64,000 nt of DNA from IMG/VR virus record IMGVR_UViG_3300042868_006787, positions 1 to 64,000 of that record; one strand, given 5' to 3'. Below the pieces are notes generated by a model, which made no database searches, had not been told where the DNA came from, and saw only the letters and a list, made by a program, of their open reading frames with translations. The position numbers and the translations under genes were made by a program. Shown here in pieces: positions 8,888-62,887 of the stretch. Origin of the DNA: a virus. The first letter of the stretch is position 1, and each line of letters begins with the position of its first letter.

Positions 8888-9193
8888 TCAGCGTGCTATG
8901 TATTTGAGAGCAGAGACTAAATTGTTTACTGATTCTGCTGCAGTGTAGTATATGTTTTTCTTAGCCCTGTTGCTTTTATCCACATTGGCCATCCAGGTTG
9001 CTTTTAAAGATAATTTTCCCGCAATTGCTTGTAATCTAACTATTTCTATAGTGGCAACTGCAATTGGAATATCTGGTCTGGTAATTAGTTTAGCAATCAT
9101 TTCTAATGAAGTTGTAAGTTCTTCATCTTCCATATATTCTGCAATTTCTGCTAAACCATTTATGCTTTCAAGCGTTGTTTTGACTGGCTCCAT
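8888..9193 (-). CDS. Hypothetical helical protein, 101 residues
   Basis: An all-helical small protein (INGLAEIAEYMEDEELTTSLEMI ... ESVNNLVSALKYIA) with no recognisable domain, signal or membrane segment. GAGG lies 5 bases before the ATG, and it overlaps the oxygenase-like gene before it by 26 bases. Helical proteins of this size in such positions are often nuclease partners or inhibitors; nothing in the sequence decides this. Confidence 0.65.
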   Translation of the reverse strand: MEPVKTTLESINGLAEIAEYMEDEELTTSLEMIAKLITRPDIPIAVATIEIVRLQAIAGKLSLKATWMANVDKSNRAKKNIYYTAAESVNNLVSALKYIAR

Positions 9194-9857
9194 CTTTGCC
9201 TCTTTTCAGTTTTTCTAGTTGTTCTAGTTGTTCAAAAAATTGCTTTCTGTATTTAATCATTCTTGGCATATTATTGTGTTTTTCTCTGATAAACTCTTTT
9301 TCTACTGACGTCATTTGTTTTTCTGCATATGGCCTATGATCATCTTTGTTAGAAAAATGGAACACAATTACTTCACACCTGTCGTTTTCTTTTAAAATAA
9401 CTGGTGCCCTCCAATGTATTTTTTCTGCTGCTTCAAAAACTAATACTTCATTATTTTTTAAGAAAAATTCTTCTTCTTCTATAACTACTGCCCAATCAAT
9501 ATTACTTGACATTTGGTAATCAATGCTTACTTTTGTATAATAATTTTCTGTATCAAGATGTGGGGGTAAATTTGGAGAACTTCCATTACCATATTTGCCA
9601 AAATAATCTAAATATTGATAATGAGTTAACTCAAGGTCTGGATCATTAACATATTGCATTGCAAGTAATTTTAATTTTTCTAAGATTTTTTTTGGTACCT
9701 CAAATTCAATCTGTACCCTAGACATGCTTTCAATTGTCATTGGGGCGTAGCGACTTGTGCCTGGGGGAAGAATTCTATTCTCTTCAACCAGGTCTCTAAG
9801 TTTTTGCTCTTCTTCTTTGGTAAAAAAGTTTTTTACAATGCCGCAATTAATATCCAT
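9168..9857 (-). CDS. 2OG-Fe(II) oxygenase-like protein (first triplet, copy C)
   Basis: This 229-residue protein has the iron-binding facial triad of the double-stranded beta-helix dioxygenases: H100 and D102 in PPHLDTENYY and H148 in KIHWRAP. R160 (NDRCEVIVFHFS) may hold 2-oxoglutarate. It is a paralogue of the genes at 10148 and 10851, sharing the HWRAP and VFHFS-type segments. Known relatives hydroxylate protein side chains, nucleobases or small molecules; the target here is unknown. No ribosome site is seen, but TATAAT lies just 6 bases before the ATG, suggesting a leaderless transcript. Confidence 0.8.
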   Translation of the reverse strand: MDINCGIVKNFFTKEEEQKLRDLVEENRILPPGTSRYAPMTIESMSRVQIEFEVPKKILEKLKLLAMQYVNDPDLELTHYQYLDYFGKYGNGSSPNLPPHLDTENYYTKVSIDYQMSSNIDWAVVIEEEEFFLKNNEVLVFEAAEKIHWRAPVILKENDRCEVIVFHFSNKDDHRPYAEKQMTSVEKEFIREKHNNMPRMIKYRKQFFEQLEQLEKLKRGKDGASQNNA

Positions 9858-9863
9858 AGTAAA

Positions 9864-9869
9864 ATTATA
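9864..9869 (-). promoter_or_regulatory. -10 box for a leaderless transcript of the oxygenase at 9857
   Basis: TATAAT on the minus strand, preceded by GGG, ends 6 bases before the ATG. With a normal -10 to start distance, transcription would begin at or next to the A of ATG. It overlaps the 3' end of the nuclease gene upstream. An almost identical box precedes the related oxygenase at 11519. Confidence 0.65.
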
Positions 9870-10155
9870 CCCTATCTACTAGATCTTCAATAACCGATAG
9901 TTCAGCAACCAGAAGTCGTGTTTTTTTTGGCCCATCACCTAAAACTATTATTAATGCTGGAGATTTATCAATTCCAGATTTAATAGCATCTGTTGTTATT
10001 TTTGCCCAAACTTTTTCATTTAGTGTAAAAGATTTTTTTGCTTCTTTTATATCAATTACAAAAGATTTCCAAGTGGCATCCCCCTTTTTGTTTCCTCTTC
10101 CAGAATTTTTATGGGCAGTGGCATTTATTCTTTTTATTTCACCTTTTTCACTCAT
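9865..10155 (-). CDS. Hjc-like / phage Holliday junction nuclease-like protein
   Basis: This 96-residue basic protein has a compact PD-(D/E)XK-like core: a GRGNKKGD segment, then FVIDIKEAKKSFTL (Asp...Asp-x-Lys), then VWAKITTDAIKSG and ALIIVLGDG. That order resembles small phage and archaeal junction-resolving nucleases, and the segments are familiar from other phage nucleases of this kind. The ATG at 10155 is preferred (8-base overlap with the gene before); a TTG at 10173 is possible. With the RuvC-like gene it would give this phage two junction-type nucleases. Confidence 0.6.
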   Translation of the reverse strand: MSEKGEIKRINATAHKNSGRGNKKGDATWKSFVIDIKEAKKSFTLNEKVWAKITTDAIKSGIDKSPALIIVLGDGPKKTRLLVAELSVIEDLVDRV

Positions 10156-10843
10156 TAGTATATTTTCTAACAAGTTGCTTTAAGTATGTATTTTCTCTCA
10201 TTAATCTAGAGGCAAACTCGCTTGAGAATCTCATCATTTTACTTTCTATCTTTTCTTTTTCATTTAAAGTTATTGGCATACTATCTTTTAAAGAAAAATG
10301 ACAAAACAGCATATCTATAAAGTCTCCATCTTTAAATTCTAGTGGCGCTCTCCAGTGAATCTGATGAGTTCCAGAAAAAGTAACGGCATCATTGTCTCCA
10401 AGTTGTATTTCTTTTCCTTCTACAACAATTGGCCAATTAATATTTGATTTTAATTGAACGTCCAATGTAACTCTTGGTTGTCTAAATGCGTTATCATAGT
10501 GTGGAGTTAGGATTGGAGTATTTGAGTATTTATTAGAATATCTCGCAAAGGAAATTTCTTCTAATTTTAAATCCTGATTATGAATAATTTTCATTTGTTG
10601 TGCAACTCTATTTTTAATTTCTTCTGGAAGATTTGTAAACCAAGCCTTTTGCCCATAAATTCTAACCTCTGTTGTATTTTCGTTAGAGGTTAAATCTATT
10701 GTATTGTAAATTAAATCGATTTCGTTTTTTGTAAAAATATTTTCATATTTTCTCACATGCGTTAGTAAAGTATTTTTTGCATGATCAATATTTACATCCT
10801 TTTCTAAATTTTTTGGCTCTTGGTTTGCTGGGAAATTATTCAT
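10148..10843 (-). CDS. 2OG-Fe(II) oxygenase-like protein (first triplet, copy B)
   Basis: This 231-residue protein is a paralogue of the genes on either side. The metal triad is H115 and D117 in TPHYDNAF and H163 in QIHWRAP. DVQLKSNINWPIVVEGK aligns with the same region of the gene at 10851, and the end of the fold reads MLFCHFSLKDS. GAGGA lies about 9 bases before the ATG, so it is probably translated from the transcript of copy A. The substrate is unknown. Three copies side by side point to duplication followed by divergence. Confidence 0.8.
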   Translation of the reverse strand: MNNFPANQEPKNLEKDVNIDHAKNTLLTHVRKYENIFTKNEIDLIYNTIDLTSNENTTEVRIYGQKAWFTNLPEEIKNRVAQQMKIIHNQDLKLEEISFARYSNKYSNTPILTPHYDNAFRQPRVTLDVQLKSNINWPIVVEGKEIQLGDNDAVTFSGTHQIHWRAPLEFKDGDFIDMLFCHFSLKDSMPITLNEKEKIESKMMRFSSEFASRLMRENTYLKQLVRKYTNE

Positions 10844-10850
10844 CCTAGGA

Positions 10851-11519
10851 TTATCCTCTTTTCCTTAAAGTTTCGTCACTCAAGATATTTGTTTCTTTTT
10901 GAAGAACTGTTTGTCTTTCAAGCATAATTGTTGAAATAGTTTCAGATATGGGCTTTGAAATTTTATGCTTAAGCCAGAAAAACATCATTAGTATTTCTGA
11001 GTTATCTTGCAATTTTTTATTTTCTCTCCAGTGCATCTGTTGAGTCCCAGAAAATAGTAAGGCCTGATTGTCTAAAATATTAAATTGTTTGCCTTCAACA
11101 ATTATTCCCCAATCCTCATTTGTTTGCAATTGAACATCAAAAACAAACATCTCGTACGGCCTTGTGTCATAATGTGGAAACAATTTAACTTCATATCCGT
11201 ACTCAGGAGAATATCTAACAACAGAATATTCTGCAACAACCAAATCTTTATTGCATACTTCTGATGCTAAGTTTTGTATTTTTGCAATTATATTATCTGA
11301 AATTTTTATATGATCTAGAACTCCTTGCCCACCCCATTTTTGAACTCTAACCTTTTTTAAAGGAAATTCCCTGGCTGCTTGCAATATAGCCTTTAGTTCT
11401 TTATCAGTAAAAATATTATCTACTAAGATTGGAATAAAATCTTGATCAGACACATAGTCTTGAGATTCTCTCAATTTTTTATACTTTGGAAATTTATCTA
11501 GCAATGGGAAAGTAGTCAT
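10851..11519 (-). CDS. 2OG-Fe(II) oxygenase-like protein (first triplet, copy A)
   Basis: This 222-residue protein has H116 and D118 in FPHYDTRPYE and H163 in QMHWREN, the iron-binding residues of the dioxygenase fold. Its middle, DVQLQTNEDWGIIVEGKQF, closely matches copy B. The N-terminal part (to about 90) carries the helical lid typical of the family. No ribosome site precedes the ATG, while TATAAT lies 6 bases upstream; a leaderless mRNA starting here and covering copies A and B is likely. Target unknown. Confidence 0.8.
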   Translation of the reverse strand: MTTFPLLDKFPKYKKLRESQDYVSDQDFIPILVDNIFTDKELKAILQAAREFPLKKVRVQKWGGQGVLDHIKISDNIIAKIQNLASEVCNKDLVVAEYSVVRYSPEYGYEVKLFPHYDTRPYEMFVFDVQLQTNEDWGIIVEGKQFNILDNQALLFSGTQQMHWRENKKLQDNSEILMMFFWLKHKISKPISETISTIMLERQTVLQKETNILSDETLRKRG

Positions 11520-11531: not shown

Positions 11532-11706
11532 CCCTACCTCTCTTTGTATAACTTGTTTGCCTTACTAAAGTTATTTTTGATAAATGCTTTTTACTGCACA
11601 TCCAAGTACATTCTGTTGTATCTGGAAATAGCCTCATAGATTTTACTTCTTCATTGCAAGTCTGACATAAAAATTTGCCAGGGTATACGGAATACTGTTT
11701 ATCCAA
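11527..11706 (-). CDS. Small zinc-finger protein, 59 residues
   Basis: The frame starts at a TTG that overlaps the RecA stop by 8 bases, with AGG 9 bases upstream. The product begins MDKQYSVYPGKFLCQTC and carries C14-x2-C17 and C33-x3-C37 (ECTWMCSKKH), a four-cysteine zinc site, followed by a basic tail ending TKRGRV. It fills an otherwise empty gap between RecA and the oxygenases. DNA binding is likely; a role as an accessory to RecA is a guess from position. Confidence 0.65.
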   Translation of the reverse strand: MDKQYSVYPGKFLCQTCNEEVKSMRLFPDTTECTWMCSKKHLSKITLVRQTSYTKRGRV

Positions 11707-12718
11707 ACTGTTTGACCTTATTTAAAATGTCTGCAAACAATTCTTTGTCCTCTCTAACTTTATTAATAAAACCTTCTCTTCCCTGCACCTTTGATCCATC
11801 TGGTAATAGATACCAGGCCCCTGTGCGTTCTACTATACCCATTAATTCAGCAGTATCGATAAGATCAGCAATGCTGTCAACCCCAACCAAATTTCCCCTA
11901 AAGTAAAAATCATATTCTCCAGATTGAAATCCTGGACTTGTTTTTGAAAACTGTAAATCCCATCTAATCTTGCGACCAATTTTTTCTTCAATTAATTTAT
12001 CACCTACAGGAATCTTTCCTTTAATTGCTTGATTGTCTGATTCTGAAGAAAATAACTTAACAACTGTTGAAGAATAAAATTTAGTAGCCTGACCACCAGT
12101 AGGCTGCTGGCTAGTATACATAGCAGAAATATTATTACGACTTTGACTAATAAGAATAAAGAGAGTTGGCTTAACTTTGTTATTAGCATAGTTGATCATT
12201 TTCCAAGCATTAGAAAAGTCTCTTGATTCTGCTCCAATTTGTTTTGTATTTTCAAGTTGCTTAAGTTCATCTGAATCTTTTTCAAAATATATTGCTGGAA
12301 GAAGTGATGTAATTGAGTCAACAACAATTAAATCAACTCCAGCATTCATTAAATTTGTTCCAATATCTACCATTTCATTTATTGTTCGGCACTGAGAAAC
12401 AATAAGTTTTGAAGAGTCTACACCAAGTAATTCAGCCCAATCTTTATCATATGACATTTCTGCATCAATCCAAGCACAGATTTTTCCTTCTTTTTGTGCA
12501 AGCGCTACTGTTTGTAAACATAGTGATGACTTGGCGCTTGATTTGCTTCCCCAGATTAAAACTTGACGCCCATAAGGCAGACCACCATTTAATGCTTTAT
12601 TCAACCCATAACTTGGTGTTGCAGCATATTGTGTTGCTGGAATAGTGTCTCCAGACATTACAGTTTTTCTTAACTTTGGATTAAGTTGTGCCAATACATC
12701 TTCTATGGTCATTGTCAT
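11699..12718 (-). CDS. recA: RecA-like recombinase
   Basis: This 339-residue strand-exchange ATPase begins MTMTIEDVLAQL. The P-loop reads GSKSSAKSS (57-65), with Ala where RecA has the last Gly of GPESSGKTT. Walker B is VDLIVVDSITS, and QSRNNI plus SQQPTGGQATKF match the DNA-loop region. The start at 12718 is chosen because GGAGAAGGA lies about 10 bases before it; an ATG at 12739 has no ribosome site and merely contains that purine run. It should load on single strands made by the Cas4/RecB-like nuclease. It follows dnaE directly. Confidence 0.9.
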   Translation of the reverse strand: MTMTIEDVLAQLNPKLRKTVMSGDTIPATQYAATPSYGLNKALNGGLPYGRQVLIWGSKSSAKSSLCLQTVALAQKEGKICAWIDAEMSYDKDWAELLGVDSSKLIVSQCRTINEMVDIGTNLMNAGVDLIVVDSITSLLPAIYFEKDSDELKQLENTKQIGAESRDFSNAWKMINYANNKVKPTLFILISQSRNNISAMYTSQQPTGGQATKFYSSTVVKLFSSESDNQAIKGKIPVGDKLIEEKIGRKIRWDLQFSKTSPGFQSGEYDFYFRGNLVGVDSIADLIDTAELMGIVERTGAWYLLPDGSKVQGREGFINKVREDKELFADILNKVKQFG

Positions 12719-12742
12719 TTTTATTTTTTCCTTCTCCATGGT

Positions 12743-15700
12743 TTAAATAAGTACATCATCTAACGTAACAGTTCCATCTTTTGTTTTTCCAAAAACAAAC
12801 CTATAAGAATTTCCTTCTTTAATATTCATATAGGCTTTAGCAAAAGATGTAGGAAACACAAGAATAGATTTTAATTCTCTAGATGTATTTGCTAATGTCA
12901 TTGAAGCCATTTTTTTTCCCTGCTTAGTTGTCCTTGATTTAAATGCAACAACAAACATTTCTTCATCTTTAAATGGCAACTGTTTATAACTTAAAAATTT
13001 AACAAGAGCACTAGAAGATTGCTTTATTTCATCAATAGGAACTGAAGATATAATCCTATTATCATTAGTAAGAACCAAGTAAGTGCGACCCGTCTCAATA
13101 GTCGTTCCTTCTTCATCAAATATGCCAACACTCCCAGTTTTGTCAAGAATTTCAACTCGTGACCATCCCTTTCCTCTTTTAATTGATTTTATCATACCCA
13201 TTAAAATAAAAGAGCCCTTTTCTTCAAATTCGTCAACTTGCTGGATAAAGGCATGATAATGAGATGGAATATTAATATTAAACTCTGGCAAATTTAAATA
13301 TTCGTATAAATTTTCTTTTATTTGATTATCGTTACGGGGATTGTCTAAAAATGTCAATGATCCAACGGCGTTCATTGCTGCTAATGCACGACTGTTTACC
13401 CCGTTACCTTTAGTAAAAGTGAAGTCTTCTACATCTTTATAGGTTTTAAAAGGTCTTGCAGCAATATATTTGTCTGCTATTTTATCTGATATATATTTAA
13501 TTGCAGTTAACCCAAATCGAATTCCTTTTCCTTCAATTTGAAAGTCTTTACCAGAATCATTAATATGTGGAAGTTTAATAGGAATACCCATGCGTTTTGC
13601 TTCAATTAAATATTCAGTTCTGTTGTCAGGATTTTTTTCATTTTTTAATAATGCAAACATAAACTCAAGAGGGTAGTAATATTTTAGCCACGCCGTCCAA
13701 TACGAGAGAGTAGAGTAAGCGACTGCATGGCTCTTATTGAACGAGTATCCCGCATGCGCCTCAAAATCATGCCATAAATCACGAGCCTGATTAGGAGTAA
13801 TATAGGCAGAAGCGCCAGTAATAAAACGTTCTTTATAAATGTCGAACTCTTTGGCGTCTTTCTTTTTTCCAATAATTTTTCTGACTTTGTCGGCTTCAGA
13901 CATTGACATTTGTCCAAGGTGTACGCATGCTTGCATAACTTGCTCTTGATAAAGAATGCAGCCATAAGTATCCTCCGTGTAAGGTTTTAATATCTGATGT
14001 AAATATGATACAGCCTGTTTTCCATGTTTTCTTGCAACATAGTCTTTTCCGATAGTGTTCATTGCTCCTGGCCTAACAAGAGCATTTGATGCTGCTAATT
14101 CATTAAGATTTTTTACCCCCATTTTAACAATTAAATTAGTGTAGGGTGTTGCTTCGCATTGAAAAATTCCTTTAGTGTGTCCATCTGAAATCATTTCATA
14201 CACCTTGGAATCTTCCATGTCTATCTCAAGTGGATTAATTTTAACAAAATGATTTTTTTCAATCATCTTAATAGTGTCATCTAAAACACTTAAAGTTTTT
14301 AATCCTAGGGCATCGATTTTAATTAAACCTATCTTTTCTGCTTCTTCCATATCTACCCCAACAACTGGTATGCGATTTTCTGATCCTGGAGAAGATCTTG
14401 TTTCTAATGGAGCATGTTTAAAAATTGGCTCTTTACTAGTAACAATTCCAGCAGCATGAATTCCAGTGCCCCTAATGCGCCCACGCAATTGTTCTCCATA
14501 AACCTCTACTTCTGGATACTTTTCTCTAAACTCTAATGTAGACCTAGAGTTACAAAAATCATCCCAGGTATCTACTGTTTTTAAAATTTTGTTTACATCT
14601 GATAATGGAATATTAAGAACTCTAGAAACATCACGAACAATTCCTTTTCCTGTAAATTCTAAAAATGTTGCAATAGAAGCCACATGCCTGTATTGTCTAA
14701 CAAGATAATCTTTCACTTCTTCTCTTCTAGAATCTTGAATATCTGTGTCAATATCTGGAAAGTCATTACGTTCTGGATTGATAAATCGAAAGAATAAAAG
14801 CCCATGCTCTATTGGATCAATTTCTGTAATTCCAATTAAATAACAAAGTAAAGAGCCAGCAGAAGATCCACGACCTGGACCAACTCTAATACTTTCTTTT
14901 TTTGCCCAATTAATCATGTTGCTTACAACAAGAAAATAGGGAGCAAATTTTTTATCTCTAATAATTGATAGTTCTTCATCAAGTCTTTGTTCGTATATAT
15001 CATTGCCTAGCCAACTACTAGTTAAACGTTTTTCTTCTAATCCAGCAAATGCCAAATTTGCCAACTCCTGATCTGGATTTTTATATTGAACTGGCAATAA
15101 ATTTAAATGTTCTTTAATGTCATAGTCTTCTATTTTATTCATAATTTCAATAGTTGAACTAAATATGTCTGTTCTTGTAAACATTTGTTTTTGCATTTCT
15201 TCTAACATTTCTGGTCCGCTTAGTAAGTGAATATTAAACTTATTAAAACTCATTTGTCTATCTTTGCCATATAAATAATCAAGTTTTGTCATCATGTCGT
15301 TATACTTTTTAGATTTTTCGTAAGTAACATTTTTCTCTAATTTTGCATGAGTATTTAAAATTAATTTTAACTCTTGTATTTCTTTTTGACTTTTATCCGA
15401 ATGATGACAATCTGGGGTAACAACAATCTTAATGCCAAACTCATCTGCCAAATCCATTAAATGCATATTTACTTGTTGCGGGTTATGTGGCATTACCTCA
15501 ATATAATAGTCATCTTTAAATGTATCTTTAAACCATTTTATATATTTTTTGGCTTTTGCAAATTCTTCAAGTTCTACTGCCTTGGTAACAATTCCACTTA
15601 AACATCCTGACGTAACAATAATTCCTTCTTTGTATTTTTCCAATGTTTCAAAATCAAACCTTGGTTTTCTAAAGTAACCTTCAGTCCATGCAATTTCGTT

Positions 15701-16027
15701 AATTTTGTTAAGATTTTCTAAACCTTGCTTATTCTTGGCTAGAAGAACTATATGGTTGTATACATTATCTAGTGGATCTTTTCTTTCCGCCCTGTCTCTT
15801 TTGTCAAAGCGGTCAGCACACATATAGCCTTCTATGCCAAGAATTGGTTTTATCCCTTTTTCTTTTGCAATGCGATAGAACTCACGATGCCCAGATAGAG
15901 TGCCATGATCCGTAATTGCCAGTGCTGGCATACCAAGAGTCACGGCACGTTCTAAATATTCTTCTGGCGTAGCAACACCATCCATTAACGAATAGTGTGT
16001 ATGTACGTGTAGTCCTACGTAATTCAT
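12743..16027 (-). CDS. dnaE: DNA polymerase III alpha subunit (DnaE type)
   Basis: This 1094-residue replicative polymerase starts with a PHP domain (HVHTHYSLMDG, ITDHGTLSGH, and further His/Asp motifs to about 260). The C-family palm has catalytic aspartates in FPDIDTDIQDSRREE (about 420) and in IKIDALGLKTL. YGCILYQEQVMQ and HAGYSFNKSHAVAYS are classic DnaE segments, and the C-terminus has an OB-fold-like region. It probably replicates the whole phage genome. The ATG follows the preceding stop by one base (TAG-T-ATG), so translation is coupled. Size is close to bacterial DnaE. Confidence 0.97.
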   Translation of the reverse strand: MNYVGLHVHTHYSLMDGVATPEEYLERAVTLGMPALAITDHGTLSGHREFYRIAKEKGIKPILGIEGYMCADRFDKRDRAERKDPLDNVYNHIVLLAKNKQGLENLNKINEIAWTEGYFRKPRFDFETLEKYKEGIIVTSGCLSGIVTKAVELEEFAKAKKYIKWFKDTFKDDYYIEVMPHNPQQVNMHLMDLADEFGIKIVVTPDCHHSDKSQKEIQELKLILNTHAKLEKNVTYEKSKKYNDMMTKLDYLYGKDRQMSFNKFNIHLLSGPEMLEEMQKQMFTRTDIFSSTIEIMNKIEDYDIKEHLNLLPVQYKNPDQELANLAFAGLEEKRLTSSWLGNDIYEQRLDEELSIIRDKKFAPYFLVVSNMINWAKKESIRVGPGRGSSAGSLLCYLIGITEIDPIEHGLLFFRFINPERNDFPDIDTDIQDSRREEVKDYLVRQYRHVASIATFLEFTGKGIVRDVSRVLNIPLSDVNKILKTVDTWDDFCNSRSTLEFREKYPEVEVYGEQLRGRIRGTGIHAAGIVTSKEPIFKHAPLETRSSPGSENRIPVVGVDMEEAEKIGLIKIDALGLKTLSVLDDTIKMIEKNHFVKINPLEIDMEDSKVYEMISDGHTKGIFQCEATPYTNLIVKMGVKNLNELAASNALVRPGAMNTIGKDYVARKHGKQAVSYLHQILKPYTEDTYGCILYQEQVMQACVHLGQMSMSEADKVRKIIGKKKDAKEFDIYKERFITGASAYITPNQARDLWHDFEAHAGYSFNKSHAVAYSTLSYWTAWLKYYYPLEFMFALLKNEKNPDNRTEYLIEAKRMGIPIKLPHINDSGKDFQIEGKGIRFGLTAIKYISDKIADKYIAARPFKTYKDVEDFTFTKGNGVNSRALAAMNAVGSLTFLDNPRNDNQIKENLYEYLNLPEFNINIPSHYHAFIQQVDEFEEKGSFILMGMIKSIKRGKGWSRVEILDKTGSVGIFDEEGTTIETGRTYLVLTNDNRIISSVPIDEIKQSSSALVKFLSYKQLPFKDEEMFVVAFKSRTTKQGKKMASMTLANTSRELKSILVFPTSFAKAYMNIKEGNSYRFVFGKTKDGTVTLDDVLI

Positions 16028-48091: not shown

Positions 48092-48691
48092 TTAACGGTT
48101 TTCCCAAAGAGGATTTCCCCAATAGATGTCCTCATACTTTAAACCTGGATAGGGAGACTGTCCAGTTGGAGCATTCCAAAAATCAGATATAAACATTGGT
48201 TTTTTTTCAACAGTAGTAATCTCTCTTGAAAATTCCTCAGTTTCTGGGAAAATTATACAATCTCCAGCAATCAAATTTTTTGCAATTTTATAGTTATTAA
48301 ATTTAAAGATTCCTCCATCATGGCAATCATTCCACTTTATAATTGACCTAAACACATTTTCAGGCCTATCTGCTGAATGACCTGCTGAAATATTTTTTCC
48401 TGGGGCATATCTCATAATATAACTCTTTCCTAAAATAGGTGGGTCATATTTAATTCCAGACATTTGAGAAACGGCTTCCTGTATTGCATTACAATATTTT
48501 TCAAAGATAGAAACAACCTCTCTTGGCATATCTCCATAAGTGGTTATGTCAAAGTTTATTCCTTCTTGGCTAAATAGAGGGTCATGTAATGGGATATGAT
48601 CTTCTTTAGTATTAAATTTAACTGAATCAACAAATTTGCCAATTAGTTCTAAGTTTTCTGCTGTTGCTACATTTATTATTTGATAATTCAT
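48092..48691 (-). CDS. 2OG-Fe(II) oxygenase-like protein, metal site altered
   Basis: A 199-residue protein with the dioxygenase frame: YIMRYAPGKNISAGHSAD, FRSIIKWNDCHDGGIFKFNN, LIAGDCIIFPETEEFSREI and KPMFISDFW. These match the conserved strands, but the HxD motif reads HSAD (H105, D108, one residue too long) and the distal His position is Arg156 in FSREITTV. It may have lost iron binding or use another residue. AAGGAG precedes the ATG. It follows ribonucleotide reductase directly. Confidence 0.65.
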   Translation of the reverse strand: MNYQIINVATAENLELIGKFVDSVKFNTKEDHIPLHDPLFSQEGINFDITTYGDMPREVVSIFEKYCNAIQEAVSQMSGIKYDPPILGKSYIMRYAPGKNISAGHSADRPENVFRSIIKWNDCHDGGIFKFNNYKIAKNLIAGDCIIFPETEEFSREITTVEKKPMFISDFWNAPTGQSPYPGLKYEDIYWGNPLWENR

Positions 48692-48700: not shown

Positions 48701-50731
48701 TTAGTAAAACTTAATTTCGCAGGCATCTGTACTACAATAAGCCTCGCCCTGTGCTTCTAAATTTTTTACGCCATCGTAAATAGCAGACCAATCAATCTTT
48801 CCAATTTTTCCAACATAAGAATTATATTCTTCTTTGGTTATTTGAGTATAAGGTTGCTGTGGATATGTTTTATTTCCCATGGGCAAGAATGATACTGCTT
48901 TTAATTGCCCCTCGTACATGTGTAAGGCGGGAGCAATAAACTTAGACTCTGTTTCTTTATCAAATGAAAGTGTTACAGATACCCCATTGTCTGACCAATA
49001 TTTTTGAGCAGTTGCTGCTAGACCAATTTTTTCAAAAAGACTTACATCTTTTTCAGATCTTGGGTGCCCAGATGCTACTGGGAAATATACTACTGAAGTG
49101 TTTGCTGATACTACATCATCTTCAATTTTATATCCTGCTGCTTTAAATAAATGCATCATTGGATCTGTATTGCCAAACCTTATAGCACGAAGATAAAATT
49201 CTCCTCCTGGACCCCAATGAACTCCTGGAGTAGCACCAGAAAGCAATGAAACAGAGCCAGAAGGTTTGACGGTAGTTACACGAATTGACTCTCTAACGCA
49301 TAGCCATTCCGAATAACTATGGTCATATGAGCGAATCTTTCGATACCCTTCATCCATCCATTGTCGTACCGTTGGCATACCTTTAGTGTCTGCAAAAGAT
49401 GCAATTCCAGTTAAAGATGTTCCAATACGACGATTACGTTGCATAATTCCATTTGTGGTTTGCCAGTGTGTTGGCATGAGTGTTACAGTTTTGCCATATA
49501 GATATGCAAACTTCAATGTGCGTAAAAAATCTTCTTTGTCTTCATGTCTATTAAGATGAACTTCTACTAATGTGCAAAGTTCGTAAGACTCTAGTGGTTG
49601 TTCAGCGCAAGGATTAAATCCCATGATACGAGAATCTTTTCCATCTGCAGGATCTGCAAGGCGTCCATAGTTACGAGCAACATCTAGCCAAATAAAACCT
49701 GGCTCTCCGTTATCTACAATTAGGTCAACATAGTCTTCATATTTTGTTCCAACTTCTGCTGAAATAGAATTATTAGACATCCAGGCCCATCCTGGATTTT
49801 CTGAATCAAAAGAATTTCTATCTGGAAAAACCTCTGCATTTTTTAAATTAATAAAATCTTTATCTTCTGGTAACCCTAAAGCCAATGTAGCAGAACGACG
49901 AACATTTCCAGAAACAACACATGTGCCAATAAGGTTTACAATATCTACTATTGCACGAGAATCAAGTGTTTCTCCTGCTCTACCACCAATTACTTTATCT
50001 ATCTTATTGTGTAATGCAATAAGTGGTCCTGGGCCGCTGGCAACCCCTCCAAAGCCTTTTATAGGGGCTCCTAGAGGACGGATAAGGTCATAGTTAAACT
50101 TTTGTATAGCCTGATTAGGGCGCAGGTATGAATTTAAAAGCATTCTTACAGAATCTACCCAGCCTTCACGAGTATCTGGAATATCCCAGATATTTTCTGG
50201 TTCTGTTGGAGAGTAAATAGACATTTCTTTATCTTGTCCAAGAGTATCGAACCCTACTCCTATGCCTAACATTAATGCATCCATAACCCAAGCGAACAAT
50301 GCTCCTGGATCGTTTCTGTCAATATCACGGGTAGAGACCATTGCACAATTTTGAAGAGATGCAGAGTTACGGCTTTCCATAGTCATTGGAGTTCCAAAAG
50401 CCCAAAGACCACGACCAGGTGGTGTCCATTTTAATGTAAATAAACGGTCGTATGCTTCTTGAGCAGATTTTTGAGCCTTATAATCATTCCACGGGAGTCT
50501 ATTTTCTTTAGCATGATTTTTTTGTACTGAATACATTCCTTCAACTACACGTTTGCAAACTTCATGCCATCTTTCTTTAGTCCCATCTTCTTTCATCCTA
50601 GAATAAGTACGAATAAAAGTGATTTCTCCTAAAGAGTTAGTAGCAGCATCTTTAAATCCAAAAGGAGGTTCTGTTTGTTTATAACTCTCTAGGAATTCTG
50701 GCGATAATTTAAAAGAAAAAAAGTCTAACAT
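48701..50731 (-). CDS. nrdJ: Class II (B12-dependent) ribonucleotide reductase
   Basis: A 676-residue enzyme making deoxynucleotides with adenosylcobalamin as radical source. It matches the monomeric RTPR type: C129 (LQNCAMVST), C375 and E377 in FNPCAEQ, C386 (YELCTLVEV), and the C-terminal redox pair C666 and C671 in YCSTDACEIKFY. No NrdB or NrdG gene is present, as expected for class II. GGAGGA lies before the ATG, and a promoter and palindrome sit upstream. It frees the phage from host reductase limits and needs host or environmental B12. Confidence 0.95.
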   Translation of the reverse strand: MLDFFSFKLSPEFLESYKQTEPPFGFKDAATNSLGEITFIRTYSRMKEDGTKERWHEVCKRVVEGMYSVQKNHAKENRLPWNDYKAQKSAQEAYDRLFTLKWTPPGRGLWAFGTPMTMESRNSASLQNCAMVSTRDIDRNDPGALFAWVMDALMLGIGVGFDTLGQDKEMSIYSPTEPENIWDIPDTREGWVDSVRMLLNSYLRPNQAIQKFNYDLIRPLGAPIKGFGGVASGPGPLIALHNKIDKVIGGRAGETLDSRAIVDIVNLIGTCVVSGNVRRSATLALGLPEDKDFINLKNAEVFPDRNSFDSENPGWAWMSNNSISAEVGTKYEDYVDLIVDNGEPGFIWLDVARNYGRLADPADGKDSRIMGFNPCAEQPLESYELCTLVEVHLNRHEDKEDFLRTLKFAYLYGKTVTLMPTHWQTTNGIMQRNRRIGTSLTGIASFADTKGMPTVRQWMDEGYRKIRSYDHSYSEWLCVRESIRVTTVKPSGSVSLLSGATPGVHWGPGGEFYLRAIRFGNTDPMMHLFKAAGYKIEDDVVSANTSVVYFPVASGHPRSEKDVSLFEKIGLAATAQKYWSDNGVSVTLSFDKETESKFIAPALHMYEGQLKAVSFLPMGNKTYPQQPYTQITKEEYNSYVGKIGKIDWSAIYDGVKNLEAQGEAYCSTDACEIKFY

Positions 50732-50855: not shown

Positions 50856-51551
50856 TTATAATAACACAAAACTATTATCATTATAGGTTTCTATAGGATC
50901 TATATTTTTATTAATAGGAAAAATATCGTATGCAATTGTAATCCTATCCTTTGAAAGATTCCAAGGAGCCATAGCATGTGCGTGGCCTGTTTCTGAAAGA
51001 ATTGCAACATTGTTTTTATTATTAATAATTACATCTTTACCAAAAATTTTATAATATGTTTTAGAAGGCTCTGCTGAAACCGAATAATAGCCATGAAGAA
51101 ATGGGAAGCCTTCTCCTCCATGATCGTGCCAAGGCATTTTTTCTATCATCTCTTCAGTTATCTCAATATCCTCATTTGTACTATTTTTTACACTATATAA
51201 ATTAAACCATCCATGAATAGAAAAGTCTTGATCTTCAAAATTTACACCATAATACTCGCAAGCCTCAATAGTCATAGATCTTATAGATTTTAATAAATTA
51301 ATTAATGCTGGATGTTTAAAATTAAATATATTGTAATACTCGGTTGTCATTGATGGAATTCCATCTTTTTTATCAATAAACATTTCCTTTGGAAATTTAG
51401 TCATTGTATGATCTGTAACCTCATTAATCTTAAAAAATTGCTCGGCATATATTAAGTAATTAACTTTATGCAGAAATGAGTATAAATCTTCTAAGTCATT
51501 ATCTAATTCCCTAGAAAAAAATTTATGCTGTTTTTTCAAATGATTTTTCAT
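50856..51551 (-). CDS. 2OG-Fe(II) oxygenase-like protein (second triplet, copy C)
   Basis: A 231-residue paralogue of the two genes before it. The metal motif is WHDHGGEGFPFLHGYYS, with HxH in place of HxD; the distal His is in ILSETGHAHAMAPW, and an Arg in DRITIAYDIF can bind 2-oxoglutarate. This is the style of the PF13759-like oxygenases. The start at 51551 is an ATGA overlap with copy B; an ATG at 51566 would overlap more. Substrate unknown. Only the arrangement of three copies is clear evidence of selection for several related activities. Confidence 0.75.
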   Translation of the reverse strand: MKNHLKKQHKFFSRELDNDLEDLYSFLHKVNYLIYAEQFFKINEVTDHTMTKFPKEMFIDKKDGIPSMTTEYYNIFNFKHPALINLLKSIRSMTIEACEYYGVNFEDQDFSIHGWFNLYSVKNSTNEDIEITEEMIEKMPWHDHGGEGFPFLHGYYSVSAEPSKTYYKIFGKDVIINNKNNVAILSETGHAHAMAPWNLSKDRITIAYDIFPINKNIDPIETYNDNSFVLL

Positions 51552-52207
51552 GATAATGGAATCCATTTTCCTGGTTTGCCACCAGACATCATAGCAGATG
51601 GAACTATATCATAGGCAATTGTTATTCTTGGGTTTTTTTGAAACCAATCATCTCTTCCATGTGGGTGACCAGTTTCTGAAATAATTGCTCTATTGTTTTT
51701 ATTTACATTTTCAAAAATTTTATCTTCATTTCTGTCTATTTTATAAAAAGTAGAAGATGGCTCTGCATCTACACAGTAATATCCATGAAATGCTGGTGCG
51801 CCAATTCCATTCATATGATCATGAAAATGATTTGGATACTTTAATGGATTAACTCCCCCATTTTTTCCTTCATTTGGAGTTTCCTGGTCTAAATTGAACC
51901 ATCCGTGAATTAAATATTTTTCTTTATCCATATCTATTTCATAATATTCACAAACATCTTTCATTAATTTTCCAAGAGACTTGTAGAGTTGATAAATGCC
52001 TGGATGAATAAAAGTAAAAATATTATAATGATCAATGCCTAACTTTGTTAAAGATCCCATCCCTTTTCCATGCTTAAGCATTTCTTCTTTTGAAACATTT
52101 AGAATATTTTCATCTAAAATTAAAGATTCCATATCAACTAGATAAGACTTAAGACTATTTAAATCATTATCTAAAACAACATTAAAAAATTTTTGTGGTT
52201 TACTCAT
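51548..52207 (-). CDS. 2OG-Fe(II) oxygenase-like protein (second triplet, copy B)
   Basis: A 219-residue protein with HFHDHMNGIGAPAFHGYYC, IISETGHPHGRDDW and PRITIAYDIVPS, the same three motif blocks as its neighbours. It has a short insert before the HxH motif. The start at 52207 (MSKPQKFF) is an ATGA overlap with copy A; an upstream ATG at 52234 lies inside copy A. As in the other copies, a KFF(x)RxLDxDL-like N-terminus leads into helices that cover the barrel. Confidence 0.75.
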   Translation of the reverse strand: MSKPQKFFNVVLDNDLNSLKSYLVDMESLILDENILNVSKEEMLKHGKGMGSLTKLGIDHYNIFTFIHPGIYQLYKSLGKLMKDVCEYYEIDMDKEKYLIHGWFNLDQETPNEGKNGGVNPLKYPNHFHDHMNGIGAPAFHGYYCVDAEPSSTFYKIDRNEDKIFENVNKNNRAIISETGHPHGRDDWFQKNPRITIAYDIVPSAMMSGGKPGKWIPLS

Positions 52208-52851
52208 GCCAGTGGAATCCAGTGCTGTTCCCAATTATGCATAATTCCTTTAAAAGGAATAACATCATAGGCAATTGTTATTCTTGGACCTTCCCAGTCC
52301 CAATCAGCCATGGCATGGGGATGGCCAGTTTCAGAAAGAATGGCTCTATTATTTTTATTTATATTTTCAAATTCTTTATCAAATACTTTGTAGTGAGTTG
52401 TTGATGGTTCTGCTTTTACAGAATAATAACCGTGAAACCACGGAGCGCCAGAGCCACCATGTTCGTGCCAATCAAGTTTTCCGGTGTGATTGTAATTAAC
52501 ATTAAACCAACCTTGTACCCAAAAATCCTCTTTTTCAAAATCAAGATCATAATGTTTACAGGCTTCAATAGTCATAGACCTTACAGATCTAAACAATTTA
52601 TGAATTGCTGGATGATAAAATTGAAAAACATTATATTTATTCCATTTGCTTGTAGTTATACTTCCAGAAGAGTCCCAAAGCGTCTTTTCATCTTTATCAT
52701 TTTTTAATATTTCGCCTTTTTTAATACGTTCAGATTGTATAATTAAAAAATTTGATAAATTATCTAGGTCAGAATCTAAAGTTCTTTCAAAAAATTTATG
52801 AGGAACGTTTTTATTTTGACTAGTGCTGTTTAAAGAAATATTTTCGTACAT
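52204..52851 (-). CDS. 2OG-Fe(II) oxygenase-like protein (second triplet, copy A)
   Basis: A 215-residue protein, first of three tandem copies. Motifs: LDWHEHGGSGAPWFHGYYS (H129, H131), ILSETGHPHAMADW (H177 or H179) and GPRITIAYDVIPF (R190). SMTIEACKHYDLDFEKEDFW, a conserved helix-strand, is shared with the others. GGAG precedes the ATG and an extended -10 promoter lies upstream, so one mRNA probably carries all three copies. Known members of this fold hydroxylate proteins or small molecules; no target is evident. Confidence 0.75.
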   Translation of the reverse strand: MYENISLNSTSQNKNVPHKFFERTLDSDLDNLSNFLIIQSERIKKGEILKNDKDEKTLWDSSGSITTSKWNKYNVFQFYHPAIHKLFRSVRSMTIEACKHYDLDFEKEDFWVQGWFNVNYNHTGKLDWHEHGGSGAPWFHGYYSVKAEPSTTHYKVFDKEFENINKNNRAILSETGHPHAMADWDWEGPRITIAYDVIPFKGIMHNWEQHWIPLA

Positions 52852-52899: not shown

Positions 52900-54180
52900 T
52901 TACTTATTATGTACTAGATAATCTCCAGCAATAAACCAGTCTTGTGGCTCACAGTTAAACTGATAGACTACGGACTCTGAAATATCAGTTGTTATAGATA
53001 CAATTTCTATTTCTGAAAAAGATCCATCTTGTTCAACTTTTATTAAAATATCTCCTTCTTCTATTTCAGAAGCATTTTTAACAACATAGGATGACCCCAC
53101 TTTAGCAAAAAATGGCTGTGTCATTGAATATTTGCTATGGGATTCTCCATTAAAATATACAACTGAATACTTTGTTGATGGAACAATATTTACAACAGTT
53201 GTTGAAACTATTCCATTTGAAGTTAATGCTGAACTAGAAAATTCTGAGTAGTCATAATCTCCAGCATCCCCTTCAGTTGACAATTCTGACAAACCTACTG
53301 AGTATACAGCATCTCCAACCTGAATATCTTTTGCTGCAACCAAACCAGTTGGCGTTCTAATTAGTGTGTCTGCTTCAATACAAGCACGTCCTCCTGGTGA
53401 AAAACCAAACGGTGTAAATCCAAATGGTGTAAATCCAAATGCGCCAAATGGTGTAAATCCAAATGCGCCAAATGGTGTAAATCCAAATGGTGTAAATCCA
53501 AATGCGCCAAATGGTGTAAATGAAAATGCATCAAACGGTACAAAACCAAATGCACCGAATGGTGCAAAACCAAATGGTGTAAATGAGAATGATGTTACTG
53601 ATCCTGAAGCAGCAGATGTGCCTGAATTACCGTTAGCGTTAGTTGCATAAACGGTGTATGTTTGTGCTGTTCCCGCTTCTTGCCCTACAGAAACAGATGT
53701 TCCCGCCTGTGTTGCTCCCTTGCCATCGCTAGAAGCCCAAGTGTAAGAAGTAATAGCACTTCCACCAGTTGCTGGTGCTGACCAAGAAACGTCGTCGTTT
53801 GCCGCTCCACCTTGTGCAGTTGCGCTAGGTGCTGATGGAGTTGCAGGAACTGTTGTTGCAGTTACTGAGCCGCTTGCTGCACTTGCTGCCGATGTTCCAT
53901 AAGTATTAGTTGCAGTTACTGTAAATGTATAAGCAGTATCACTTGATAAACCTGTAACCCGAATTGGAGAACTCGAGCCAGAAGCGGTGTAACTTCCTGG
54001 GGTTGATAAAACTGTATAAGAGGTTGCAGCATTTCTTGGGTCTGCAGTGAAGGAAACATCTACAGCACCATCATTATATGGACGAGCAGTTCCAACATTG
54101 GATGCAGAATCAATTGTTGGTGCATATGGCATTAAAAAGTCATTAGCACCTTGCGATTTACGACCACTTCTTTTACTCAT
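52900..54180 (-). CDS. Fn3 / GFTPFG-repeat / Hint-domain virion protein
   Basis: A 426-residue protein in four parts: two Fn3 domains (about 20-110 and 112-197), a low-complexity stretch of GFTPFG and GAFGF units (198-262), and a C-terminal intein-like Hint domain (267-426). The Hint part starts with C267 in ACIEADTLIRTPTG and ends with WFIAGDYLVHNK, the usual VHN end, here followed by one Lys and the stop. The block-B His of inteins appears to be Gln355 (YSMTQPFF). There is no homing endonuclease. Hint domains cleave or rearrange the peptide bond at their first residue, so the Fn3-repeat part may be released or attached to something. It is flanked by fibre genes. Confidence 0.8.
   Translation of the reverse strand: MSKRSGRKSQGANDFLMPYAPTIDSASNVGTARPYNDGAVDVSFTADPRNAATSYTVLSTPGSYTASGSSSPIRVTGLSSDTAYTFTVTATNTYGTSAASAASGSVTATTVPATPSAPSATAQGGAANDDVSWSAPATGGSAITSYTWASSDGKGATQAGTSVSVGQEAGTAQTYTVYATNANGNSGTSAASGSVTSFSFTPFGFAPFGAFGFVPFDAFSFTPFGAFGFTPFGFTPFGAFGFTPFGAFGFTPFGFTPFGFSPGGRACIEADTLIRTPTGLVAAKDIQVGDAVYSVGLSELSTEGDAGDYDYSEFSSSALTSNGIVSTTVVNIVPSTKYSVVYFNGESHSKYSMTQPFFAKVGSSYVVKNASEIEEGDILIKVEQDGSFSEIEIVSITTDISESVVYQFNCEPQDWFIAGDYLVHNK
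53395..53589. repeat. Short tandem repeats coding for GFTPFG/GAF units
   Basis: About 200 bases of repeated 9-, 15- and 24-base blocks, read on the minus strand as alternating F-G-F-T-P-F-G and G-A-F. Copies differ by single bases. The same stretch keeps other frames open by its periodicity. Slippage or unequal exchange here would change linker length without breaking the frame. Confidence 0.85.
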
Positions 54181-58457: not shown

Positions 58458-59021
58458 TTACAGTTTTTCAATCCAAACTTGATACCCTTTTTGTAAAATT
58501 TTAATTCTAAGTTCGTTGTTTTTTAAAAACCTATCAATACCATTTAAAGGTTTTAAGTCAACATTTCGACTTGGGTGCTCCCATCCGTAATCATCAAACG
58601 CAAGGATTCCTCCTGATTTTAAAAGCGGGAATGCTAAAATTGCATCATTGTAAACACCTTCTGCTGAATGATCTCCATCTATATATATAAAGTCAAACTC
58701 TGCATCAGAAGAAGATAGGTATTCTTTGCTATCTTTTTTGATCTTTATAGAATTCGGGAACTGGCTCATTTTTTCATCATACATTGACTCAATTTCATCC
58801 CAGTCAAATTCTGTGTGAATTTTTTCTTTTGAGCCTTTCCAAGTATCTATGTCTGTAAGGCTTGATGTTTTGTCTGTTAATATATTTTTTAACAGCCATT
58901 CAGAGCCATGACCAAGGTATACGCCAATTTGTAAAAAATTAACATTTGGAAGGTCTTTATACTTGTTTAAAAATTTTTCAAATATTTGAATGTTGCTAGA
59001 AAACCAGTTTGGGTATTTCAT
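58458..59021 (-). CDS. Class I SAM-dependent methyltransferase-like protein
   Basis: A 187-residue protein with the Rossmann motifs: NFLQIGVYLGHGSEWLLK (motif I, glycine loop), SLTDIDTW, then FDFIYIDGDHSAEGVYNDA and LKSGGILAFDDYGW. This is the style of Methyltransf_24 and sugar O-methyltransferases. The start at 59021 has GGAG 5 bases upstream and overlaps the glycosyltransferase before it by 26 bases; a longer in-frame start would reach far into that gene. Being coupled to two glycosyltransferases, it may methylate a glycan. Confidence 0.75.
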   Translation of the reverse strand: MKYPNWFSSNIQIFEKFLNKYKDLPNVNFLQIGVYLGHGSEWLLKNILTDKTSSLTDIDTWKGSKEKIHTEFDWDEIESMYDEKMSQFPNSIKIKKDSKEYLSSSDAEFDFIYIDGDHSAEGVYNDAILAFPLLKSGGILAFDDYGWEHPSRNVDLKPLNGIDRFLKNNELRIKILQKGYQVWIEKL

Positions 59022-59745
59022 GGTTTCTCCAATAGTCCAAGGTTTGTTCTTTTGATGTTGTGTGAATAGAGAACTTGCCAGTTTCTTCTGCGGTCTTATC
59101 AAACTCCAAATTAATTGAAGAGCCATAATCCATTGTGTAAGTAAAAAGTGGAATAGATAAGGTTTTGCAACCTTCGTATATCAAAATATCTGCTAATGCT
59201 GCTCGTGAACTTGGCAAAACATATTTTCCATCAATAAAATATTTCTTTAATAAGGCTTCTGCCCTATTTCTTTTAATTAAATAGCATGCTGCAGACCAGT
59301 CTCTTTTTTCTTTCATATGTAAGGATGGATTGACCCTATAGTTATGAATAATGCAAAGTTGTAACATGTCGTATGGTTTTTTTATTGATTCTACAAAATT
59401 AGAAAATTCAAAATTCCAAAAATCTACAGTCTCTAAACTTAAATCGTCTTCAGTAATAATTGCATATTCAGAATCTGAAGTCTCTAGCCAATGTTTGATT
59501 GTTTCAAGATGCGAGATAGTTGCCCCTAATTCATTTTTTGCCAACTGAAGTTTATCTTTTTCAAAAACAATTTTATCAAAATCAAAAGTGTCACCATCAT
59601 AGGCTGTAATAATTTTATAATCTTTTATTTCATACTTTTCAAAATGATTTTTTATATAGTCTAGCCTGTCTGTCTTAGACTCAAGATTAATCACATATAT
59701 TGGGGAGAACCCCTTTAATTTATTTAAACCAGTATGTTCCAGCAT
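58996..59745 (-). CDS. Glycosyltransferase family 25-like protein
   Basis: A 249-residue protein with the GT25 start FSPIYVINLESKTDRLDYIK, then DYKIITAYDGDTFDFDK, NELGATISHLETIKHWLETS and ITEDDLSLE (the acidic metal-binding motif), later AACYLIKRNRAEALLKKYF. GT25 includes LPS galactosyltransferases and the galactosyltransferases that modify hydroxylysine of collagen-like proteins. It overlaps the glycosyltransferase gene before it by 26 bases and the methyltransferase after it by 26. A virion glycoprotein or a host-surface glycan is the likely target. Confidence 0.8.
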   Translation of the reverse strand: MLEHTGLNKLKGFSPIYVINLESKTDRLDYIKNHFEKYEIKDYKIITAYDGDTFDFDKIVFEKDKLQLAKNELGATISHLETIKHWLETSDSEYAIITEDDLSLETVDFWNFEFSNFVESIKKPYDMLQLCIIHNYRVNPSLHMKEKRDWSAACYLIKRNRAEALLKKYFIDGKYVLPSSRAALADILIYEGCKTLSIPLFTYTMDYGSSINLEFDKTAEETGKFSIHTTSKEQTLDYWRNHEIPKLVF

Positions 59746-61094: not shown

Positions 61095-61095
61095 C

Positions 61096-61626: not shown

Positions 61627-61635
61627 AATTTTATT

Positions 61636-61644: not shown

Positions 61645-61660
61645 CTAAAAGCATTGGTAG

Positions 61661-61690: not shown

Positions 61691-61700
61691 TAAGGTATTG

Positions 61701-61714
61701 ACACCGAAAGGTGT
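61701..61714 (+). promoter_or_regulatory. Small GAAA-tetraloop hairpin in the lysin leader
   Basis: ACACC-GAAA-GGTGT forms a 5-pair stem with a GNRA loop, followed by TATTTT. It starts close to the expected mRNA 5' end and ends 13 bases before AGGAGG. It may stabilise the message or act as a weak attenuator. Confidence 0.5.
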
Positions 61715-61736
61715 TATTTTACTTATAGGAGGATCT

Positions 61737-62267
61737 ATGAATAAAGAAGATTTTATTACTGGAATTGCCGGAAGTTTTATTGCTGCCGTAGTTGGTTTAA
61801 CTGGGGCTAACGCAAATCTAGAAGAAATTGTACCTATAGAAACTGCAAATGAAAAAGTTGAGTCGGGGACTCCGTCCGCAATAAAAGCAAAATATTCTAA
61901 CGTTACAACCCTGTCAGATAAAGAGTTAAAGGTTTTATTGAAAGCGGTTGGCTTTGACGGACAAGGTTTAAAAATGGCATGGGCAGTTGCTAAAAAAGAA
62001 AGCAATGGCAGGCCTCTGGCCTTTAACGGCAACAAGGACACTGGCGACCACTCGTTTGGAATATTTCAGATTAATATGAATGGAAGATTAATGGAGGATA
62101 GACTAGAAAAATTTAATCTTAACTCGGTCTCTGATCTTTTTAATCCAGTAACCAATGCAGAGATTGCTTTCTACATGACAAAAGGCGGAAAAGATTGGTC
62201 ATCTTGGACTTATCTTGAGGGACAAAGAATTAAAGAATTTTTAACTAAATATCCGACAATTAATTAA
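61737..62267 (+). CDS. Lysozyme/transglycosylase-like lysin with N-terminal export signal
   Basis: A 176-residue protein, the only gene on the plus strand. AGGAGG lies 6 bases before the ATG at 61737, which excludes an ATG at 61698. The N-terminus (MNKEDFITGIAGSFIAAVVG then LTGANAN) looks like a weak signal peptide or signal anchor. The C-terminal domain (about 70-176) has the lysozyme-fold pattern AWAVAKKESNGRPLAFNGN (catalytic Glu), then DHSFGIFQINMNG and NPVTNAEIAFYMTKGGKDWS-W. It should cut peptidoglycan. No separate holin is seen, so export by the host Sec system is possible. Its stop overlaps that of the oxygenase on the other strand. Confidence 0.8.
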   Translation: MNKEDFITGIAGSFIAAVVGLTGANANLEEIVPIETANEKVESGTPSAIKAKYSNVTTLSDKELKVLLKAVGFDGQGLKMAWAVAKKESNGRPLAFNGNKDTGDHSFGIFQINMNGRLMEDRLEKFNLNSVSDLFNPVTNAEIAFYMTKGGKDWSSWTYLEGQRIKEFLTKYPTIN

Positions 62268-62887
62268 AAATAGGCAATAGCCGTATATTTTGTTCCAGAA
62301 GTAACTCTAAGTTCTCTGTGTCTATAGTTTTTGTTTGCTGGATATATCAAAACATCTCCTGCAGATAAACTTATAATTTCGTTGCCAACTCTATTTTCAA
62401 ATTGAAATTCACCACCAGCATAGTTGTCGTTTAATGCTATAACAATTGTATAAAAATGTTTTTGTCCATCTCTATCTAAATCATCGTGAAAATCAGAACT
62501 TTCAATTTGTTCGTAAATTGTAAAATTTTTTATTTTTTTTATTGACAGTTCGTATTCTTTTATATAATCATACAGAAAGGGAAAGGCATAGTCAATTAAT
62601 TCAGATTTTAAATTACTTTTTTTAATAGATTGCCCTAAATTGTTTGCCACTAAGTTAATTTCTGAAATTACTAAATTAGGAACCAATAAAAAATTATCTT
62701 CGCTTGGCAAGTTAATAACTTTTTGATTGACAATATGATCAGTATCTCTAATATTTTTTAAAGAAGAAATGCTCCATACATTTTTTGTTGATGGCTCATT
62801 GTTTACTGTCTGTAACAATTCTATAAAATTTTTATTTTTATTCTCAGAATAAAGGATAACAAAGTTATCTAAAAAAGTTTTATTCAT
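62264..62887 (-). CDS. Prolyl-4-hydroxylase-like 2OG-Fe(II) oxygenase
   Basis: A 207-residue enzyme-like protein with a complete site: H134 and D136 in SDFHDDLDRDGQKHFYT, ALNDNYAGGEFQFEN, the SLSAGDVLIYPANKNYRH distal His (H190), and K200 in SGTKYTAIAYF for 2-oxoglutarate. This is the arrangement of P4H-type hydroxylases, known to act on proline or lysine of proteins. It is encoded directly after two Hint-type proteins and ends tail-to-tail with the lysin gene (TTAATTAA shared). Confidence 0.85.
   Translation of the reverse strand: MNKTFLDNFVILYSENKNKNFIELLQTVNNEPSTKNVWSISSLKNIRDTDHIVNQKVINLPSEDNFLLVPNLVISEINLVANNLGQSIKKSNLKSELIDYAFPFLYDYIKEYELSIKKIKNFTIYEQIESSDFHDDLDRDGQKHFYTIVIALNDNYAGGEFQFENRVGNEIISLSAGDVLIYPANKNYRHRELRVTSGTKYTAIAYF

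Follow-up and report, generated by a model that had tools for sequence, protein, structure and literature searches.

The stretch of DNA analysed here (the window) comprises bases 1-64000 of the 82,053-base virus record IMGVR_UViG_3300042868_006787 and contains eight genes which an initial annotation, made from the sequence alone, had described as 2-oxoglutarate (2OG)-Fe(II) oxygenase-like, most of them in two triplets located in different operons. Because the terminase, portal, head protease, major head protein and tail proteins of the PHROG collection were matched, the record was assigned to a tailed phage; further PHROG matches were DNA polymerase, DnaB-like helicase, UvsX-like recombinase and ribonucleotide reductase (RNR). 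All eight open reading frames (ORFs) are real and complete at the positions compiled in Table 1. They form three sequence families, A (A1-A3), B (B1-B3) and C/D, and one member, C, is degenerate. With the motifs kept in A and B and the metal ligands lost from C, seven of the eight genes look catalytically competent, judged from their sequences. Copies with 100% identity recur in other IMG/VR contigs (B1, C and D jointly in one 80,741-base record, A1-A3 in two other contigs), thus the oxygenase genes are not assembly artefacts.

Oxygenase families and their folds

The members of each triplet are paralogues, as annotated (29-39% identity within A, 40-45% within B), and the two triplets differ, the A and B profiles being unrelated (hhalign probability 0.7%). 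In iterated profile searches of the loci fetched by then, A, B and C/D stayed separate and C merged with D. This grouping and the replacement of HxD and of the distal His rule out the earlier view of the gene at 48092 as an altered triplet copy; C has no metal triad and no Pfam match. Pfam recognizes D alone among the eight genes: the prolyl-hydroxylase-like gene at 62264 passes the PF13640 cut-off (29.9 bits versus 27), and PF13640 is matched by 10 of 14 C/D relatives. The profiles proposed in the initial annotation for checking the oxygenase assignment (PF13640, PF13759 and PF13661) thus detected D but neither triplet, no match being found among 68 A members (E 0.01) or 76 B members (E 0.1).

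One representative of each triplet, A2 and B1, was modelled with AlphaFold2, and both predicted structures show the double-stranded beta-helix fold of 2OG oxygenases. For B1 (76 B sequences; pLDDT 92.5, pTM 0.90) the nearest solved folds were the uncharacterised proteins 3bvc (Roseovarius, Z 16.6) and 2rg4 (Oceanicola, Z 16.3), which matched over 173 and 172 residues, respectively, with 13-14% identity and no sequence-profile match, followed by PHD2 (13.7) and Pseudomonas putida prolyl 4-hydroxylase (13.5). In the alignment of 76 B sequences, which were picked for carrying H129 and H179, residues H129, H140, H179 and R190 never vary, and at least 90% of the sequences carry H131. Before selection, H129, H131, H179 and R190 occurred together in 115 of 138 B matches; three of the others have Asp for H129 or H131, four are truncated there and 16 are motif-less. 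The HxH metal motif noticed in the second triplet is therefore part of a conserved HxH...H...R, and the third position of HxH in this predicted metal site is His, not Asp/Glu. The motif-less relatives (about 185 aa) form a separate clade, lie near repeat proteins (L107, L102, L148, L211 and others) and are possibly pseudo-oxygenases.

In family B, phrog_2696, of unknown function, matches 18 of the 76 members, and the uncharacterised A0A6J5P531, from public viral proteins, is 45% identical to B1. A nucleotide search and protein searches of a phage collection with B1, A2, the repeat protein described below and one distant relative each of A and B gave no match, and the B profile yielded 11 pattern matches but no confirmed relative on genome_contigs.

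The A2 model (68 A sequences; pLDDT 90.2, pTM 0.83) was matched at Z>=8 by 708 of 1000 re-aligned chains, which, among the matches listed, were 2OG oxygenases or uncharacterised proteins. In all 68 sequences Y102, L112, H115, D117, W137, H163 and R165 are invariant, so the metal triad HxD...H (H115, D117, H163) is always kept. R165 (in HWR), the sole invariant Arg/Lys, lies two residues past the distal His, an odd place for 2OG binding. The PHROGs matched by A are labelled 'ferrochelatase', which is probably a mislabel.

The A scan covered the best 80 of 296 relatives; together with loci from other scans, 235 A-profile matches were collected in 93 loci, and since 68 of these hold two to five, tandem A sets are common in this kind of phage. 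Among 63 non-redundant A loci, relatives of the neighbouring recombinase (scored as UvsX/RadA-like) were present in 49, of the Cas4/PDDEXK-like nuclease in 48, of the small conserved gene within the array in 44 and of the DNA polymerase in 42. Family A belongs to a polymerase/UvsX/nuclease (replication/recombination) module and B lies in the tail region, so the separation into different operons was not only borne out but informative. A function in replication or on nucleic acid appears the likelier one for A: the targets of A1-A4 would be nucleic acid or a protein of replication, with A1-A3 encoded in that module.

That family A modifies or repairs DNA (or RNA) during replication in an AlkB-like manner comes close to an even chance. 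It would agree with the position of A between the recombinase and the nuclease, with the presence of the AlkB-type NMAD-1 and AlkB among the top Foldseek matches of A2, and with the single A member of 68 that touches PF13532 (AlkB; E 0.0027); DNA repair has been proposed for phage oxygenases near uvsX/uvsY/uvsW in a passage of PMC9146016. On the other hand, the structural scores of A2 are close together (SnoN 14.8, 6n1f 14.4, prolyl hydroxylases up to 13.7, AlkB 12.9), so prolyl hydroxylases and SnoN do as well as AlkB, and A2 itself has no AlkB profile match. The best PDB sequence match of the A profile, though weak (E 0.013), is a prolyl 4-hydroxylase, 2jig, which we take to be the Chlamydomonas enzyme. 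AlkB proteins carry an RxxxxxR motif after the distal His, whose second Arg is absent among the conserved columns of the 68 A sequences, and A4 is located away from the replication/recombination module.

Linkage of family B to aromatic-repeat proteins

The gene directly upstream of B1, on the same strand and 48 bases apart, encodes a 426 aa protein with an Fn3 domain (PF00041, E 4.8e-7), aromatic repeats and a C-terminal segment that starts with Cys, ends with HN and resembles Hint_2 (E 0.049) and Intein_splicing (E 0.067), both below cut-off. The repeat of this protein does not simply reflect a repeated DNA unit, as it uses two different codons for Phe, two for Pro and three for Gly. In IMG/VR contigs B mostly had, upstream of it, a tail-region gene whose product combines Fn3 or PASTA domains with an aromatic low-complexity repeat (FTPFG, FYHGF or FYNF type) and often a HINT-like end.

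This linkage was scored from both sides. In the repeat-first scan IMG/VR was searched with a DNA pattern for FGF[S/T]PFGF, the oxygenases being unused, which gave at least 107 repeat genes, 72 of them non-redundant (this phage's own two repeat genes are included in the counts). Among the matches listed, B was present within the five downstream genes of 46 of the 72 (71 B copies, all on the same strand) and among the five upstream genes of none, and a tail-fibre-like gene lay beside 65, mostly next upstream. In the B-first scan, which made no use of the repeats, 80 of 425 loci were evaluated and 17 were dropped for short flanks; an aromatic-repeat protein was found upstream of B in 58 of the 63 loci with at least 4.5 kb of upstream sequence, and in 30 of 33 after 90% dereplication (positives inspected by eye). 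ORFs of at least 150 aa on the B strand with at least three repeat motifs were then counted in all 80 B-first loci: 70 of 411 upstream ORFs qualified, none of 317 downstream and none of 713 in 77 A-first loci. A stricter composition filter likewise passed 0/713 A-first ORFs; a looser aromatic filter was dropped as non-discriminating (62/517 A-first ORFs passed). The order repeat gene-B was the same whether or not the ten downstream genes included RNR. In 21 of 23 matches, not dereplicated, a sulfotransferase gene (PF03567 for one member) was located exactly between the repeat gene and B.

The chemistry of the repeat varies. In one group of loci the corresponding protein has proline-free FSHYAGFYHGF repeats (HY type), and locus L472 has two adjacent Fn3-type proteins with FYNFYNYSNF repeats (YN type); aromatic repeats whose chemistry is exchanged at a given locus are unusual in themselves. 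The number of B genes was compared between repeat types in 149 loci, each with a B gene that keeps the motif, a repeat protein at most 8 kb upstream and at least 1.5 kb of downstream sequence; 57 of them remained after dereplication. The 42 FTPFG-type loci carried two or more motif-bearing B genes in 32 cases and one in 10, whereas all 15 proline-free loci (14 HY, 1 YN) had one and none had two or more. In a broader table of 86 repeat loci pooled from the scans, 61 had at least 4 kb downstream: B1 was alone in 8/8 HY loci, and among 53 FTPFG loci it was accompanied by B2, B3 or B4 in 31 and occurred without them in 10.

Table 1. Positions of the oxygenase genes and of associated features
Feature	Position	Strand	Evidence
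Cas4/PDDEXK-like nuclease beside A array	8031..8852	-	phrog_1706, phrog_1990
A3, family A 2OG oxygenase	9168..9857	-	ORF, paralogy, alignment
Small conserved gene within A array	9865..10173	-	
A2, family A 2OG oxygenase; H115, D117, H163, R165	10148..10843	-	AlphaFold2 model, fold
A1, family A 2OG oxygenase (HxD...HWR)	10851..11519	-	ORF; paralogue of A2/A3; motif invariant in alignment
UvsX-like recombinase beside A array	11699..12739	-	phrog_97 E 9.9e-57
DNA polymerase beside A array	12743..16027	-	phrog_405
C, degenerate D relative	48092..48691	-	Iterated profiles; HxD and distal His lost
Adenosylcobalamin-dependent (class II) RNR	48701..50731	-	TIGR02505 over cut-off; often downstream of B
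B3, family B 2OG oxygenase	50856..51566	-	ORF, paralogy, alignment
B2, family B 2OG oxygenase	51548..52234	-	ORF, paralogy, alignment
B1, family B 2OG oxygenase; H129, H131, H179, R190	52204..52851	-	AlphaFold2 model, structural matches
Tail-region protein, proposed B substrate: Fn3, FTPFG/AFG aromatic repeats, C-terminal HINT-like segment	52900..54180	-	
D, PF13640 prolyl-hydroxylase-like oxygenase	62264..62887	-	PF13640 E 1.1e-6; phrog_61 E 4.4e-15
HINT-like protein between D and second repeat protein	62890..63501	-	PF01079 E 0.0018, below cut-off
Second FTPFG-repeat protein (PASTA + repeats)	63507..64000, on to 64481 beyond window	-	PASTA E 6.5e-6
A4, fourth family A gene	69335-70105 of the record, beyond window		Iterated profiles

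Possible roles of the family B enzymes

The location of an oxygenase set right after an aromatic-repeat tail-region gene suggests, without proving it, that the tail is chemically modified by the phage itself. B1-B3 would then form a post-translational modification cassette, presumably co-transcribed with the gene at 52900-54180, which would hydroxylate the aromatic low-complexity repeat of its product, a presumed virion protein. The initial annotation had left virion proteins, DNA or metabolites as targets; for B, a virion protein is the hydroxylation target with the most support, though still a guess, and the repeat protein is the putative substrate, whereas for A the nucleic-acid side of that list appears likelier. 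The overall reading, namely that the phage holds separate 2OG-Fe(II) oxygenase modules with different jobs and that B1-B3 hydroxylate the repeat protein, is tentative, and we put it somewhat below an even chance.

As B1 is still present where the repeats have no proline, it should target something that all repeat types have in common. The only residue that FTPFG, FYHGF and FYNF obviously share is Phe, which makes it a candidate target of B1; a proline-only activity of B1 is ruled out by the HY and YN loci. B2 and B3 may act on what is special to the FTPFG repeats, most simply Pro, and B2-B4, which are seen with these repeats, are better candidates for Pro than B1. The most detailed form of the proposal is an aquatic-phage cassette, consisting of an aromatic tail protein, sometimes a sulfotransferase, and one to four oxygenases, that hydroxylates the tail proteins of the phage itself. 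The targets would be phenylalanine or another aromatic side chain for B1 and proline for B2-B4, and the oxygenase set would follow the repeat chemistry. The cassette would be the phage counterpart of modified structural proteins like collagen or adhesive proteins and would serve adsorption; in all its parts together this proposal is unlikely.

Several observations weigh against hydroxylation of the repeats by B. Tail fibres, family E genes (see below) and RNR share the region, and linkage is not proof of a substrate. No repeat protein is visible with the B genes of L442/L443, L464/L466 and L471, and among the 53 FTPFG loci with at least 4 kb downstream, 11 are without B and one has a motif-less B alone. 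The composition filter was unspecific, since 21 of the 317 downstream ORFs passed it, as did 56 of the 149 B genes, and therefore the motif count was used as the control; this count is specific, yet its motifs were derived from the observed repeats themselves, and most genes in the A-first control are replication genes. The phylogenetic tree needs just two changes of repeat type and provides one independent pair on well-supported branches and two on all, so that a sign test cannot reach significance; the correlation with repeat type is for this reason a lead, not a statistical result. The finding of B1 with proline-free repeats means that proline hydroxylation alone cannot explain B1. Finally, two D relatives beside the second repeat protein have lost their ligands (L147 and L119; FHNN, FIDD), which may reflect decay of the D-type oxygenase in related phages.

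Some of these observations would be expected if B were accessory cargo of a conserved tail/accessory region, acting on other targets, whether small molecules or proteins of host or phage, with the repeat proteins as mere neighbours. The E and RNR genes in the same block, the E-B pair of L442/L443, which has other surrounding genes and no visible repeat protein upstream, and the 11 of 53 FTPFG loci without B all fit this explanation. It fits less well with the absence of B upstream of the 72 repeat genes among the matches listed, with a pairing that persists when RNR is missing from the ten downstream genes or the intervening genes differ, and with a B complement that varies with repeat type, and we consider it possible but doubtful.

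It is very improbable that the copies act through metabolism, their consumption of 2-oxoglutarate steering the nitrogen/carbon state of the host as proposed for cyanophages (in a passage of PMC3037559), since interchangeable 2OG consumers are not expected to show the family-specific synteny of A with the replication module and of B with the repeat protein. Iron supply to the neighbouring RNR is ruled out because this enzyme is of class II and B12-dependent, and collagen hydroxylation by B because the GXY protein of 14 triplets, at 66614-67336 of the record, is not adjacent to B.

If hydroxylation of the repeats by B is true, enzymatic hydroxylation, and perhaps sulfation, of tail proteins would be added to phage biology, and the tandem arrangement of the oxygenases would have a reason. 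Although abundant, 2OG oxygenases of phages are functionally orphan, and the one-way conserved linkage of B to one repetitive protein offers a concrete candidate substrate.

Known systems and further genes

The superfamily is known; what is new are families A and B and the genomic partnership with the repeat protein. The eight genes had been called unusual: the count is high but not unique, as nine 2OG-Fe(II) oxygenases are recorded for cyanophage S-SZBM1 (PMC9146016, in part) and 24 for S-SCSM1 (PMC9602691, in part). Most cultured T4-like cyanophages have one to five according to a section of PMC3037559, one phage 2OG oxygenase is entered in a table of PMC2984593, and roles in host metabolism are proposed in passages of PMC9602691 and PMC3037559. 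T4-like cyanophages likewise carry many divergent paralogues in one phage, and the B1 model matches an S-SCSM1 2OG oxygenase and other cyanophage proteins (10-20% identity in the cyanophage matches listed); the present phage is of another type, and its genes stand in tandem arrays in conserved neighbourhoods. The fold of A2 and B1 is also that of the prolyl hydroxylases PHD2, P. putida EF-Tu P4H and Chlamydomonas P4H, with which D shares PF13640 and A a weak profile match to 2jig, but B has HxH for HxD and A has an invariant Arg at His+2. A2 also falls in the same fold and score range as AlkB/NMAD-1. Among the open-access papers listed in literature searches, none pointed to a description of families A or B, to their linkage with aromatic-repeat tail proteins, or to phage tail hydroxylation, a tail sulfotransferase or aromatic-repeat tails.

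The second repeat protein has PASTA instead of Fn3, its end resembles that of the first, no Hint match was obtained for it in the Pfam search, and its gene lies upstream of D. D or a decayed relative follows this protein in four loci, and D may serve it as B1-B3 would serve the first. The HINT-like segment, its match being below cut-off, and the sulfotransferase suggest possible further processing of the repeat protein. The tail region also contains a GT25 glycosyltransferase (58996-59745; PF01755, E 1.1e-12) and a Methyltransf_24 protein (58458-59126), from which other modifications are possible, and a tail-fibre-like protein (54225-55964) with an N-terminal Mtd_N (major tropism determinant) domain (PF18454, E 1.7e-15).

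Family E (DUF6065-like, E 0.0016, below cut-off) was repeatedly found beside B (L021-L036, L202:2373-3104), and together with B also in another gene context (L442/L443); its C-terminal part, we presume, resembles dUTPase-type motifs. When the repeat pattern was run on genome_contigs, two of the 115 loci listed had at least three F[STAV]PF in frame, L305 (three) and L340 (eight). L340, a 3,179-base contig from a Chitinophagaceae bin, seems to encode a repeat protein of this kind and is possibly a phage contig in a bacterial bin. The RNR is nearest to those of Mycobacterium phage Gaia and Actinomycetia phage DSL-LC01 (60-61%), the latter from lake water, and by this kinship an actinobacterial host is possible.

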